Source of the DNA: Fibrobacter sp. UWB10
Lineage (GTDB): Bacteria > Fibrobacterota > Fibrobacteria > Fibrobacterales > Fibrobacteraceae
Direction: 5' to 3'
Assembly: GCF_900182935.1 (NCBI RefSeq)
Contig: NZ_FXUE01000004.1
Span: forward strand, 62,001 to 126,000
DNA length: 64,000 nucleotides
Of the stretch, positions 51,762 to 57,714 are shown piece after piece (the first letter of the stretch is position 1; each line of letters opens with the position of its first letter). Made by a program: the position numbers and the translations under genes. The notes below the pieces were generated by a model. The model had not been told where the DNA came from and searched no databases. It was given only the letters and a program-made list of their open reading frames with translations.

Positions 51762-54035
51762 ATGGGTCAAATGAAAGCGGCTCTCAAAAAGTTTTTTGAT
51801 TTTGAAAACGGCTCCAGCTTAAAAAGCGTTTTGCTGCTTATTGCTGCGGGCCTGTTGCTGAATATTATACCGGCAAAGACGGCGCTTGCGCTTCACCTGC
51901 CGCTTTACTTGGATTGTTTGGGAACCATCATTACCGCTATGCTTGGCGGTAACCTGCCGGCAGTCATAGTCGGTTTTACCTCGAATGCAATTAACGGTAT
52001 TTCGGACCCCGTGACCATGTTCTATGGGGTAATCAGTATTTTTATTGCTGCCCTTGCGACCTTCTTTTACCACCAGCGCTTTTTCAAGAATATCCCGCGC
52101 CTGTTTGTCGTGATTCTTTCGTTTGCCTTGATTGGCGGCGGTATCGGGTCTGTCTTTACTTATTTCTTGTATGGTTTCAATTTTGGCGAAGGAATCTCGG
52201 CTCCGTTCTCGATTGCGTTCCACGAAGTTCTTGGCTGGAGCAAGTTTACCTCGCAACTTTGGGCCGACATTGTTCTTGACTTCTTTGATAAGGGTGTTGT
52301 CGTTGTATTTGCGGTGTTCCTTTTCCGCTTTATTCCCCGCGCCATCAAGAACCACCTGAACAAGGTGGTCTTGCGTGTCAACACCAACGAAGGCATGAAG
52401 AAAATGGTCCGTACTTCCTTGCTGCGCAAGGTGGTGTACATGGTGATTGTGGCCGAAGTGCTTTTGGGCGGCCTTGCTTGTACGATCGGCTTTTTCCTGT
52501 ATCGCGAAAACTCCGTCAAAAACTTTATCAGTATCGCGACCGGTGTGACCAAGGCTGCGACTACGGTAATTAATCCTGACAAGGTTGACGATTACATTAA
52601 CAAGGGTTACGAAGTCGATGACTATGCCTTTGTTCGGTCGGTGTTGCACTCTATTAGAGAAAGCTTCCCGCAGACCAAGTATTTGTATGTGTACCAGATT
52701 CGACCGGATGGTTGTCATGTGGTGTTCGACCTAGATACGGAAGAAGCTCTGGGTGGTGCACCGGGTGATGTGGTGGAATTTGACCCGAGCTTTGAACCGT
52801 ACTTGCCGACGCTTTTGGCGGGCGGCGAAATAGAACCGATTATCTCGGATGACCAGTTTGGTTGGTTGTTGACTGTTTATCGACCGATTCGCAATTCGTC
52901 GAACAAGACGGTGGCCTATGTGGCTGCAGATATTTCGATGGAAAATATCATCCGCGACGAAGCAATCTTCTTTATCAAGATGCTTTCGCTGTTCTTTGGT
53001 CTTTCCATTATCATCATGAGTATCGTACTTGAACTGGTGAAGCGTGGCGTGGTGATTCCCATGAACCGGATGTCTCTGGCTGCCATGAAGATTGCTGCCA
53101 ATACGACGCGTGCCAGCATGTTTGAAACCGAAACGGTGGACCTCGAAAGCATTCGAGACAGCGTGGAACGCCTCGGAAAAATCGGGGTGCGAACGAACGA
53201 CGAAATTGAACATCTGTACGAATCCATGTACACGATGGCGAGCGATACCTACAACTTTATTCAGCGAGTGCAAGCGCAGAACGAACGAATCCAGCGAATG
53301 CAAGAAGTCATTATTATGGAATTCGCTGAAGTGGTTGAAGCACGCGACAAGAGCACGGGTAACCATATTAAGAAAACTGCTGAATACGTGGAAGCGATTG
53401 CTCGCCAGCTCAAGAGCGAAGGCAAGTTTGTCGATGTTCTTACGGACGCCTATATCGAAAAACTCAAGCGTGCCGCTCCGTTGCATGACATCGGTAAGAT
53501 TGCTGTGTCTGACTTGATTCTGAATAAGCCGGGCAAACTCACCGACGAAGAATTTGCCATCATGAAGAGCCATACCACTGAAGGTTGGAAGATCTTGGTG
53601 AAGATGGTTGAAGATGCTGGTGATACTATTGATGCGGACTACCTGAACGAATCGATTGATATGGCGCACTACCACCACGAAAAGTGGGATGGCACGGGCT
53701 ACCCGACGCGTATCAAGGGCGAAGAGATTCCGCTGTCTGCAAGAATCATGGCTGTGGCCGACGTGTTTGACGCTCTTGTGGCCGAACGCGTGTACAAGAA
53801 GCCGTTCACTTACGAAAAGGCCATGCAGATTATTGTGGAAGGTGCGGGCAAACATTTTGACCCGGATATTGTGGAATCCTTCACGCATATATCTGAAAGA
53901 CTTTATGGCGCAAGAACCAAGCTGACCCCGCCGCCTGAAGAAAGCTCTAATGCTGATGCTGCAACAAATGCTGCTGCAACAACTACGGCTGCAAATGGTG
54001 CAAACGGCGCTGCGCCGGAACAGGCTAAGAGCTAA
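51762..54035 (+). CDS. Membrane HD-GYP phosphodiesterase with ECF-type N-domain
   Basis: 757 residues. Residues 20-180 form a five- or six-helix domain with ECF-S-like motifs (LGGNLPAVIVGFTSNAI). Two further helices flank an extracytoplasmic sensor (about 245-395, including VYRPIRNSSNKTVAYVAADIS), then HAMP-like sequence and an HD-GYP domain with HDIGKI, AHYHHEKWDGTGYP and ARIMAVADVFDAL. The HHExxDGxGYP and HDxGK sites are intact, so it should break down c-di-GMP. The tail has an Ala/Asn/Thr-rich low-complexity end. The ribosome site is GAAGG. Its 3' end is 13 bases from the flavodoxin-stefin gene. Confidence 0.93.
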   Translation: MGQMKAALKKFFDFENGSSLKSVLLLIAAGLLLNIIPAKTALALHLPLYLDCLGTIITAMLGGNLPAVIVGFTSNAINGISDPVTMFYGVISIFIAALATFFYHQRFFKNIPRLFVVILSFALIGGGIGSVFTYFLYGFNFGEGISAPFSIAFHEVLGWSKFTSQLWADIVLDFFDKGVVVVFAVFLFRFIPRAIKNHLNKVVLRVNTNEGMKKMVRTSLLRKVVYMVIVAEVLLGGLACTIGFFLYRENSVKNFISIATGVTKAATTVINPDKVDDYINKGYEVDDYAFVRSVLHSIRESFPQTKYLYVYQIRPDGCHVVFDLDTEEALGGAPGDVVEFDPSFEPYLPTLLAGGEIEPIISDDQFGWLLTVYRPIRNSSNKTVAYVAADISMENIIRDEAIFFIKMLSLFFGLSIIIMSIVLELVKRGVVIPMNRMSLAAMKIAANTTRASMFETETVDLESIRDSVERLGKIGVRTNDEIEHLYESMYTMASDTYNFIQRVQAQNERIQRMQEVIIMEFAEVVEARDKSTGNHIKKTAEYVEAIARQLKSEGKFVDVLTDAYIEKLKRAAPLHDIGKIAVSDLILNKPGKLTDEEFAIMKSHTTEGWKILVKMVEDAGDTIDADYLNESIDMAHYHHEKWDGTGYPTRIKGEEIPLSARIMAVADVFDALVAERVYKKPFTYEKAMQIIVEGAGKHFDPDIVESFTHISERLYGARTKLTPPPEESSNADAATNAAATTTAANGANGAAPEQAKS

Positions 54036-54048
54036 ATAGGAGAACGCA

Positions 54049-54939
54049 ATGTTTAACAAGATGAAACTGACTGTAGCTGCTATGTCTGTATTGGCGGCCT
54101 CGATGGTGTTTACCGCCTGCAACGAAAAGGAATCCAAGACGGAACCCAAGGCAGAATCTGCCGAAGTGGTGGCGCCTGCAACCAAGTCGGTGGTGGTGTA
54201 TTTTTCGCAGAACGGTGCGACTAAGAAACTCGCTGAAATTTTCACGAAGGCGAAGAACGCCGATGCCGTGGAATTAAAGCTTGTGACGGCTTATCCTTCA
54301 ACGTACGACAGCACGATTGCTGCAGTAAAGGCCCAGCGTGATGCCAAGCAGTGGCCCGCCCTTGAAAATGCGAAAGTGGAACTGGACAAGTATGACACGG
54401 TTTACTTGGGTTACCCGATTATGTTTGGAAGCTTTACGCCGCCCATTTACACCTTCCTTGATTCGAATGATTTGAGCGGCAAGGTTGTGGTGCCTTTCTG
54501 CACGTACGGTAGCGGTGGCCGCAAGGCTTCTGCCGCAGAACTCAAGACTCTCGAACCGAATGCGAATGTAACGCTTGCCTACGGAATTTCGAATAAGCGC
54601 ATTACCGCTGAAAATGGTGTCGAAGTTGCCGCGAGTGAAGTCGAAGCCTTCTTTGGAAACCTGGAAGCCGGCAAGACCGATGAAATGCTGATGGGTGGCT
54701 TCTCGGAACAGCGCCCGCTTGCCGCAGAAGATTCTGCCGTATTTGCCGAGGCGACCAAAGACTACGCTTATCTCGGACTCAAACCGCTGAGCGTGTCGAC
54801 GCAGATTGTCGCGGGCACGAACTATTTGTTCGTGTGCGAAATGAAGGCCTTTGGTGGCCCGGCAGTTCAGACCAACGTGAAAATCTTCAAGCCGCTCCCT
54901 GGGAGGGGCGTGCCTGAGCTGATTGTGGTCGAGAAGTAA
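54049..54939 (+). CDS. Lipoprotein with flavodoxin domain and stefin/cystatin-like domain
   Basis: 296 residues; lipobox FTAC (Cys24). Residues about 45-205 follow a flavodoxin fold: VVVYFSQNGATKKLAEIF (FMN phosphate-loop type) and VYLGYPIMFGSFTPPIYTFL. Residues 212-296 match stefins: GGFSEQRPL with the Gly-Gly head (216-217), the hallmark TQIVAGTNYLF (QxVAG at 252-256), and VKIFKPLPGRG in place of the second hairpin (LPG, 283-285). In stefins the GG, QxVAG and second loop plug papain-type proteases. The overall match to cystatin A is close by eye. The union of flavodoxin and stefin on one lipoprotein is unusual. AGGAGAACGC gives a strong start. Possible roles: envelope protease inhibitor or scaffold; inference only. 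Confidence 0.85.
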   Translation: MFNKMKLTVAAMSVLAASMVFTACNEKESKTEPKAESAEVVAPATKSVVVYFSQNGATKKLAEIFTKAKNADAVELKLVTAYPSTYDSTIAAVKAQRDAKQWPALENAKVELDKYDTVYLGYPIMFGSFTPPIYTFLDSNDLSGKVVVPFCTYGSGGRKASAAELKTLEPNANVTLAYGISNKRITAENGVEVAASEVEAFFGNLEAGKTDEMLMGGFSEQRPLAAEDSAVFAEATKDYAYLGLKPLSVSTQIVAGTNYLFVCEMKAFGGPAVQTNVKIFKPLPGRGVPELIVVEK

Positions 54940-55769: not shown

Positions 55770-57566
55770 TTATCGCAGAATGTAGTAGCCGGGGCTTGTG
55801 CGGGTGTGGGTTACGTTACGTCCTTTTGTATCGAAGCGGCTTGTGACGCCGTAATGCGTTGCGGGGCGAGACCTGAGCCTAGGCTTGATAGCGTCAATAA
55901 CGTTCGGGGTGTCGGTAGTGAGCAAGACCGCAGTGATTGATTTTGCCGGGAGCGATAGAGAGAACTTATTTGCAGAGGATGCCGCCGCGTTGGTGGCGCC
56001 GCCTAGCACTTTAGTTGCGACAGCGTCTTCTTTTAGGGCATTGTTCGTGTGCGAAACGAAGGTTTCTCCGGTGATTCCAGCAAGCGTTAGCGTCTTGAAC
56101 TTGAGCGATGCGTCAAAGTTCTTGAGCTGCAATTGAATGTCTTGTGCGTCCTTTTCGGCGCGGTTCACGAAGATGACTGTGAGCGAATCGCCCTTGTTGG
56201 TGATGGAACTGTATGCTGAAACGAGTGAGTCGTTTGTGGAGGCGGATTCGACACGGTTCGCATGACCGTAGCGGCTGAAGAGGTGTAGTGTTTCGTACAT
56301 GCCGTCCCCCCATGTCCACGGGGTGAATATTTCGACGCCGTTGTCTTGCATGGTGCCGATGAACGAGGCGTAGGTGAGGGCTGTGACCATGGGGTCGTCT
56401 TCGTCGATGAGGCTTGTTTCGGTAATGCCGAGCGTGATGCCGTGATCCTTGCCGAAGTATTTGTCGAGCCAGTCGTTGATACGCTTGAAGATGTATTCCT
56501 TTTGGTTGTCGTTGTCCCAGCCTCCGTTCACCATCTTGATCCCGTTTGCTCCGGGATAGTTATAGGTGGTGTCGAATAGAACTCGATGCCAGTTCACGCG
56601 CGATTCGTAATCTTTTTCACTCGGATACCAGTGAATGTCGAAAACATCGAGAAGACGTGTGCCAGAGGACTTTTGCGCCTCGGCAACTTTCATGATGAAG
56701 TATTCTAGCCAGCAGTAATCGCGATCGGGGCCTTTGGGTCTATCCTGTTTGTTGTACGAGGACACGGAGCACCAGAACCATTCGTTTGCGACCACCGGGC
56801 CGGTGAGCTTGATGTCGCCCCAGGCGGCGCGGGCCTTCTTGGCCACGTCGATATAGCGTTCAACGAGAAAGTCTCCCGTGACAGGCAAATCCAGGTCGGA
56901 ATGCGTGCCGCGCCAGATTTCCATTTCGTTGTCCATGCTCCAGTATTTAAAGCGGCTCATGTCGAACTTGAGTTCGTCACGCCAGTACGGGATGATGGCG
57001 ACGGTGGAGTCGGCGGGCCATTCCATATTGTAGAGTTTGTAGTCGCCAGCCTTTACGAGTGTCTTGCCGTCTTCATCTACTTCGCCGCCACCTGCAAGGT
57101 CGAGTGTCGAGGTCGCGTAGAATCCGTGCTCTTGTTTCCAGTTCCAGTCGCCAAAGTTGTAGTCGGTGGAGCTTGCGGCGAAACCGGTGAGCTGGAAGGC
57201 GTACATGGCGTCGATACCCGGCATTTTGTCAAGGACTTTTTGTGCGGTAATCGCCCAGTCGTGAGAGTAAACGTTGTTGTACCAGTCGGGGTGAACGGTC
57301 ATTTTGTGACGCCAGTTGTAGCGCGTGGCGTTGTTGCCGTTGTTTGCACGCAGCATATGCACGCCCGCTTCGAGCATCTGGTTGATGAAAGCGGTTTCTT
57401 CTTCATTCACTTCGGGGTCGCCATCGCTGATTTTATCAATGTTGCGCCCGTACAGGTACTGTGAAATTTTCTTGATACCTTTTTGCGTGTCGACGGTGAT
57501 GTCGATGGCGGCGGTAGATACGGTCGCGAAACCCGCGACGGTAATAGCGGCTAAAAGTTTTTTCAT
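55770..57566 (-). CDS. Secreted GH44-family endoglucanase-like protein
   Basis: 598 residues. ATG at 57566 with AAAGGGTTG upstream. Signal peptide MKKLLAAITVAGFATVSTAA. Strong GH44 blocks: ISQYLYGRNIDKISD, LRANNGNNATRYNWRHK, HPDWYNNVYSHDWAI, YWSMDNEMEIWRGTHSD (acid/base Glu) and GITLGITETSL (nucleophile Glu). Cuts internal beta-1,4-glucans or xyloglucan. The C-terminal 25 residues are basic and end in TSPGYYILR, a tail found on Fibrobacter secreted enzymes that resembles a sorting signal. It fits the fibre-degrading niche of Fibrobacter. It sits alone between a hairpin and metH. Confidence 0.93.
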   Translation of the reverse strand: MKKLLAAITVAGFATVSTAAIDITVDTQKGIKKISQYLYGRNIDKISDGDPEVNEEETAFINQMLEAGVHMLRANNGNNATRYNWRHKMTVHPDWYNNVYSHDWAITAQKVLDKMPGIDAMYAFQLTGFAASSTDYNFGDWNWKQEHGFYATSTLDLAGGGEVDEDGKTLVKAGDYKLYNMEWPADSTVAIIPYWRDELKFDMSRFKYWSMDNEMEIWRGTHSDLDLPVTGDFLVERYIDVAKKARAAWGDIKLTGPVVANEWFWCSVSSYNKQDRPKGPDRDYCWLEYFIMKVAEAQKSSGTRLLDVFDIHWYPSEKDYESRVNWHRVLFDTTYNYPGANGIKMVNGGWDNDNQKEYIFKRINDWLDKYFGKDHGITLGITETSLIDEDDPMVTALTYASFIGTMQDNGVEIFTPWTWGDGMYETLHLFSRYGHANRVESASTNDSLVSAYSSITNKGDSLTVIFVNRAEKDAQDIQLQLKNFDASLKFKTLTLAGITGETFVSHTNNALKEDAVATKVLGGATNAAASSANKFSLSLPAKSITAVLLTTDTPNVIDAIKPRLRSRPATHYGVTSRFDTKGRNVTHTRTSPGYYILR

Positions 57567-57714
57567 AAAACAACCCTTTTTAAACAACCTGCCTTTAAAA
57601 TAATCTCTTTTTTGAAAAAGCGGTTGAAGAGTCGAGGGCGTTTATATGCGTTTACGTTGAAAATCCCGCAACGAATACGATGCGGATTGGGACAAAAAGG
57701 GCGCGGACTTTGGT

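Follow-up and report, generated by a model that had tools for sequence, protein, structure and literature searches.

A lipid-anchored flavodoxin fused to a stefin-like cystatin domain in Fibrobacter

Architecture of the gene and its surroundings

The window considered here is a contiguous stretch of 64,000 nucleotides from Fibrobacter sp. UWB10, embedded in a genome of 3.48 Mb that is 100% complete. On its forward strand, positions 54049-54939 hold an intact open reading frame with an ATG start, which codes for a flavodoxin-stefin lipoprotein of 296 amino acids and includes the stop codon. The reverse strand of the gene is interrupted by two in-frame stops and carries no competing feature. The product starts with MFNKMKLTVAAMSVLAASMVFTAC24, a lipoprotein-type signal in which residues 1-24 (54049-54120, +) comprise the signal peptide and a lipobox, VFTA/C24, both assigned by eye. 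In an alignment of 34 related proteins C24 is near-invariant and equivalent lipoboxes are found, bearing out the proposal of the first-pass annotation that the protein is lipid-anchored. The signal is followed by a disordered linker of residues 25-44 (54121-54180, +), with AlphaFold2 pLDDT values below 50 up to residue 43.

The first globular module, residues 47-175 (54187-54573, +), was delineated by profile, fold and the alignment of the 34 relatives as a Flavodoxin_4 domain (PF12682; E=1.6e-19; score 70.3 bits, cut-off 24). According to the model, residues 176-215 (54574-54693, +) complete the flavodoxin fold and supply the connecting helices. A fold search with the full-length protein is led by the Flavodoxin_4 structures 4ici, 4j8p and 3klb (FMN-bound) of Bacteroides, with an E-value of 9e-12 for 4ici. 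The Fibrobacter protein shares with these the fold, the phosphate-loop motif and 26-27% identity, but differs in being lipid-anchored and in carrying a cystatin tail; further, near the likely flavin site it reads PIMF where relatives have PIWW or PVWW. The phosphate-loop residues S53, Q54, G56 and T58 are invariant in the 34 relatives, a pattern compatible with, though not proof of, FMN binding. Beyond a poorly modeled junction at about residues 211-220 (pLDDT ~59), where confidence is lowest apart from the N-terminus, lies the C-terminal domain, residues 216-296 (G216-K296; 54694-54936, +). Profile searches and fold thus both agree with the earlier proposal that a flavodoxin has been fused to a stefin-like domain. 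The cystatin part has a GC content of 0.57, only a moderate excess over the flavodoxin part (0.51) and the window (0.50).

Immediately upstream, positions 51762-54035 (+) encode a 757-residue membrane protein that has an HD_5 domain; 13 bp separate this gene from the fusion gene, and the two are possibly co-transcribed. Downstream, on the opposite strand, lies a glycoside hydrolase family 44 gene (55770-57587, -). Gene neighborhoods change among loci, with no neighbor family present in more than 12 of 46. The HD-domain gene and a DUF975 gene stay beside the fusion in its closest relatives only, while a GH44 gene is found nearby, on either strand, in several relatives, a few more than retain those two genes. 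Since neighbors are kept only in the closest or in few relatives, a functional link by gene neighborhood was set aside.

The C-terminal domain as a stefin-like cystatin

The C-terminal domain displays the motifs GGFSE at its head, TQIVAGTNY and KPLPG, which correspond to the three elements by which stefins contact papain. These are the Gly-Gly pair G216-G217 (54694-54699, +), recognized from alignment and entropy; the first hairpin loop of the form QxVxG, Q252-I-V-A-G256 (54802-54816, +); and the second hairpin loop, P282-L-P-G285 (54892-54903, +), between strands 273-282 and 290-295, the latter two identified from alignment and model. Hence, the first-pass annotation was correct in placing all three at the C-terminus, within a domain that it put at about 85 residues and that comprises 81, as well as in noting how closely TQIVAGTNY resembles cystatin A (human stefin A has TQVVAGTNY).

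When the domain sequence alone is compared with the PDB by phmmer, stefin A heads the list (E=7e-4), and the eight matches below E=1 are cystatins without exception. The expected match to a curated cystatin profile was only partly realized: against Pfam PF00031 the query alone obtains E=0.05 and 14.3 bits, below the cut-off of 22.2, so that one curated profile run on one sequence would miss the domain. On account of this sub-threshold score, divergent copies of the domain were gathered across the phylum, and 16 of these Fibrobacterota copies were used as a family profile. Searched against the PDB, this profile retrieves 24 distinct sequences (best E=1.3e-7; stefin A E=4e-7), every one a cystatin-fold inhibitor or a scaffold derived from one (Adhiron). 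Individually, 14 of the 16 members match PF00031, the best at 7.9e-6, and two relatives, a triple-cystatin lipoprotein (L100; 1.8e-13, 51 bits) and a double-cystatin lipoprotein (L103; 1.2e-10, 42 bits), lie above its cut-off.

Structural prediction converges on the same affinity. In the AlphaFold2 model of the full protein the flavodoxin is followed by a helix (226-235) and strands at 244-253, 256-265, 273-282 and 290-295, and the cystatin domain modeled alone reaches a pLDDT of 93.5. In a Foldseek search of the PDB cystatins fill the top 35 ranks, with a probability of 1.00 for the first 13 and TM-scores of up to 0.78; the E-values are modest (best 2.4e-3), as expected with an 84-residue query. 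The matches include stefin B (1stf) and tarocystatin (3ima), both from complexes with papain. The fold is therefore that of a cystatin, in which a single helix packs against an antiparallel sheet of four to five strands, as had been anticipated, and QIVAG lies at the tip of the β2-β3 hairpin, outside any buried strand, with PLPG occupying the next hairpin. As the profile and fold matches extend over the entire domain, chance likeness of a short motif was ruled out. Profile searches and fold thus support the identification of the domain as a stefin-like cystatin. A type-1 stefin in the strict sense is a single-domain, intracellular protein without a signal peptide, whereas the present one combines a signal peptide and lipobox with a flavodoxin fusion; we therefore speak of a stefin-like domain and not of a classical type-1 stefin.

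Conservation within the domain is concentrated on the predicted contact elements. Across 60 unique domain sequences plus the query, the blocks GG, QIVAG and PLPG have a mean entropy of 0.86 bits as against 1.58 bits for the domain, a level reached by 0.4% of random block triples with the same lengths (p=0.004). In the 34 fusions G216, Q252, V254, A255, G256 and P282-P284 are invariant. Alignment and entropy also single out F261 and C263 (54835-54837, +), the latter in the strand after QxVxG, as near-invariant across the collected domain sequences; we know of no contact or inhibitory role for either residue. In several stand-alone relatives (L099, L100, L103) a second cysteine lies opposite C263 across the hairpin, an arrangement that would allow a disulfide. 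In two relatives (L097, L105) the QxVxG motif is gone, although what remains of the domain can still be recognized, in L105 only weakly; these two proteins are natural candidates for non-inhibitory controls.

Distribution, relatives and origin

Of 80 Fibrobacter genomes, 65 carry the fusion, as do three more genomes of the Fibrobacterota, two belonging to the same family (L097, L098) and one to another family of the same order (L096). The close named matches are Fibrobacter from rumen and gut. The domain occurs in only three of the 41 genera of the phylum, and some Fibrobacter genomes that are at least 99% complete (G011, G032, G034) lack it altogether. Three divergent Fibrobacter genomes carry stand-alone or tandem cystatin lipoproteins in place of the fusion. 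Of these proteins, one has three cystatin domains (L100), two have two (L101, L103), one has a single domain (L102) and one is joined to Fib_succ_major (L099). These resemble the fusion protein in domain family, in lipoprotein signal and in having QxVxG in nearly all copies, but lack the flavodoxin, and several differ by the additional cysteine opposite Cys263. They amount to bacterial multicystatins, several of which could be cross-linked at the hairpin.

At a further locus (L104:7180-8740, +), two nearby reading frames that lack an evident signal peptide encode highly diverged stefin-like repeats in tandem (QLVNGENY, QVVNGTNY). They are similar to the Aureibacter plasmid protein and probably belong to an intracellular bacterial stefin family that is invisible to Pfam. 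Outside the phylum, plasmids of the Bacteroidota Aureibacter and Persicobacter carry bacterial stefins, as do five contigs of a viral collection, the latter loci being detected with an alignment of close family members; a search of a phage collection gave no match. Among these, Aureibacter plasmid pAT1 codes for a tandem two-domain stefin annotated as a hypothetical protein (L136:2692-3255, +), and one viral-collection contig codes for a surface-type protein of 1,416 residues with a proline/serine/threonine-rich stretch (L142:5-4255, +), the C-terminus of which is a clear stefin domain (6i1m, E=1e-4).

With the stefins or type-1 cystatins of MEROPS I25 (stefin A, 1dvc; stefin B, 1stf; CsStefin-1, 5zc1; the secreted Fasciola protein, 6i1m) the Fibrobacter domain shares the cystatin fold, the N-terminal glycine, the QxVAG hairpin, an LPG-type second hairpin and 24-30% identity in fold alignments. 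It differs from them in its C-terminal position in an exported lipoprotein, its shorter helix and the conserved Cys263. The aligned bacterial homologs, from other bacteria and viral-collection contigs, have the same short helix, and direct acquisition from a mammal is therefore not indicated. Thus, the likeness to cystatin A first noted holds for the motif, whereas the domain as a whole is not specifically cystatin A and in its helix goes with the bacterial stefins. Recent direct transfer from a mammalian host was accordingly set aside as unsupported. A tree of 80 residues has low support and does not resolve two eukaryotic sequences.

Bacterial stefins and cystatins were reported by Kordis and Turk in 2009, with Fibrobacteres negative for both and no mention of a flavodoxin or a lipoprotein, and defense against host cathepsins was proposed for the bacterial forms (PMC2784779). 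The forms described there, such as a Bacteroides fragilis stefin fused to a chagasin, have the same conserved inhibitory motifs, but come from scattered strains, unlike the present fusion, which is found in most of one genus. In the open-access literature we found no report of a flavodoxin-stefin lipoprotein or of inhibition by a bacterial stefin. As far as searched, then, bacterial stefins as such are known, and what is new is the domain architecture, the lipid anchoring and the retention across the genus.

Putative targets and biological role

Stefins inhibit C1A proteases by a wedge formed of the N-terminal trunk and two hairpins, as in complexes of the 1stf type. The explanation that we favor, with a probability of roughly 0.68, is that the Fibrobacter protein is an envelope lipoprotein that inhibits foreign C1A proteases in this classical cystatin manner, with the flavodoxin as an accessory module. 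The protein would be exported and lipidated on Cys24, presenting an extracytoplasmic Flavodoxin_4 domain and then the stefin-like domain at its free C-terminus. The trunk at Gly216, the QIVAG hairpin and the LPG hairpin would jointly plug the active-site cleft of the protease, reversibly and without covalent bonding. The flavodoxin, with its putative FMN, most likely serves as an anchored flavin-binding redox or spacer module and holds the inhibitor away from the membrane. Here the trunk is not a free terminus; the low-confidence junction of the model is compatible with flexibility at this point, and internal cystatin domains of multicystatins and kininogens also inhibit. Several observations weigh against this explanation. 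The helix, of about 10 residues, is shorter than that of stefin A, such that alignment to stefin A needs an insertion. The sub-threshold Pfam score of the query, the loss of QxVxG in L097 and L105 and the absence of the domain from some nearly complete Fibrobacter genomes count against it as well. A location on the outer surface is presumptive, no surface-export signal being established to our knowledge for Fibrobacter lipoproteins, and periplasmic anchoring would hide the inhibitor.

The likely targets would be cathepsins that rumen ciliates keep in lysosomes or release, C1A proteases of ingested plants, and proteases of competitors or of the host. No C1A papain-family protease was found in 13 genomes and no C1B protease in seven, the bacterium's own genome being included in both sets and control genomes being positive; an external target is most likely for this reason, which lends support to the first-pass suggestion of cysteine proteases of host, protozoa or competitors. 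Iodoacetamide, a thiol-protease inhibitor, is an unspecific alkylator. In protozoa-enriched rumen fluid treated with it, Fibrobacter rose from 1.9 to 4.9%, or 2.6-fold, and of the three inhibitors used it inhibited protozoa the least (PMC6908469). This result is only suggestive with regard to a ciliate target on account of both the unspecific chemistry and the limited effect on protozoa. C1A cathepsins are highly expressed in the rumen ciliate Entodinium (PMC6925433).

Within the external-target model, plant papain-like proteases of forage might be the main targets instead of ciliate or host cathepsins, in which case the inhibitor would protect cellulose-degrading surface proteins during adherence to plant tissue. 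Fibrobacter adheres to fibre and degrades cellulose in the rumen, C1A proteases abound in plant tissue, and the fold matches include phytocystatins such as tarocystatin with papain. However, by sequence and by fold its best neighbors are animal and amoebal type-1 cystatins, and nothing in the sequence separates plant, ciliate and host C1A targets. We consider a predominantly plant-directed role less likely than not.

It is unlikely that the cystatin fold has ceased to inhibit proteases and acts within a secreted flavodoxin as a module for binding or structure. Non-inhibitory cystatin folds are many, and the vertebrate families tended toward loss of inhibition (PMC2784779); further, QxVxG is lost in L097, and neither Phe261 nor Cys263, both invariant, is a known inhibitory residue. 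Against this, G216, Q252, V254, A255, G256 and L283 rank among the 12 most conserved positions in fusion and stand-alone forms alike, which drift would not maintain, and most stand-alone tandem forms keep the contact positions without any flavodoxin. Inhibition of an extracytoplasmic cysteine protease of the bacterium's own, as envelope protection, is very improbable: for bacterial chagasins, inhibition of C1 proteases of the bacterium itself or of its host has been proposed (PMC2784779), and the lipid anchor could be periplasmic, but the searches for these two families, C1A and C1B, came back empty and no conserved neighbor offers itself as a paired protease.

If the favored explanation of foreign-protease inhibition is extended, it is conceivable, though we advance it tentatively, that a dominant cellulolytic gut genus for the most part displays a lipid-anchored, eukaryotic-type cysteine-protease inhibitor, vertically kept as protection from being digested by rumen ciliates or by plant proteases, and that its flavin domain may adjust redox conditions at the site of thiol-protease action. 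Bacterial stefins have since 2009 been described as rare and patchy, whereas the Fibrobacter form is kept by most of a cultivable rumen genus of cellulose degraders. Should ciliate, plant or host cathepsins be inhibited, and should loss of the protein ease digestion of the cells, a bacterial protease inhibitor would be tied to survival under rumen protozoal predation, one reason why ruminants use nitrogen inefficiently.
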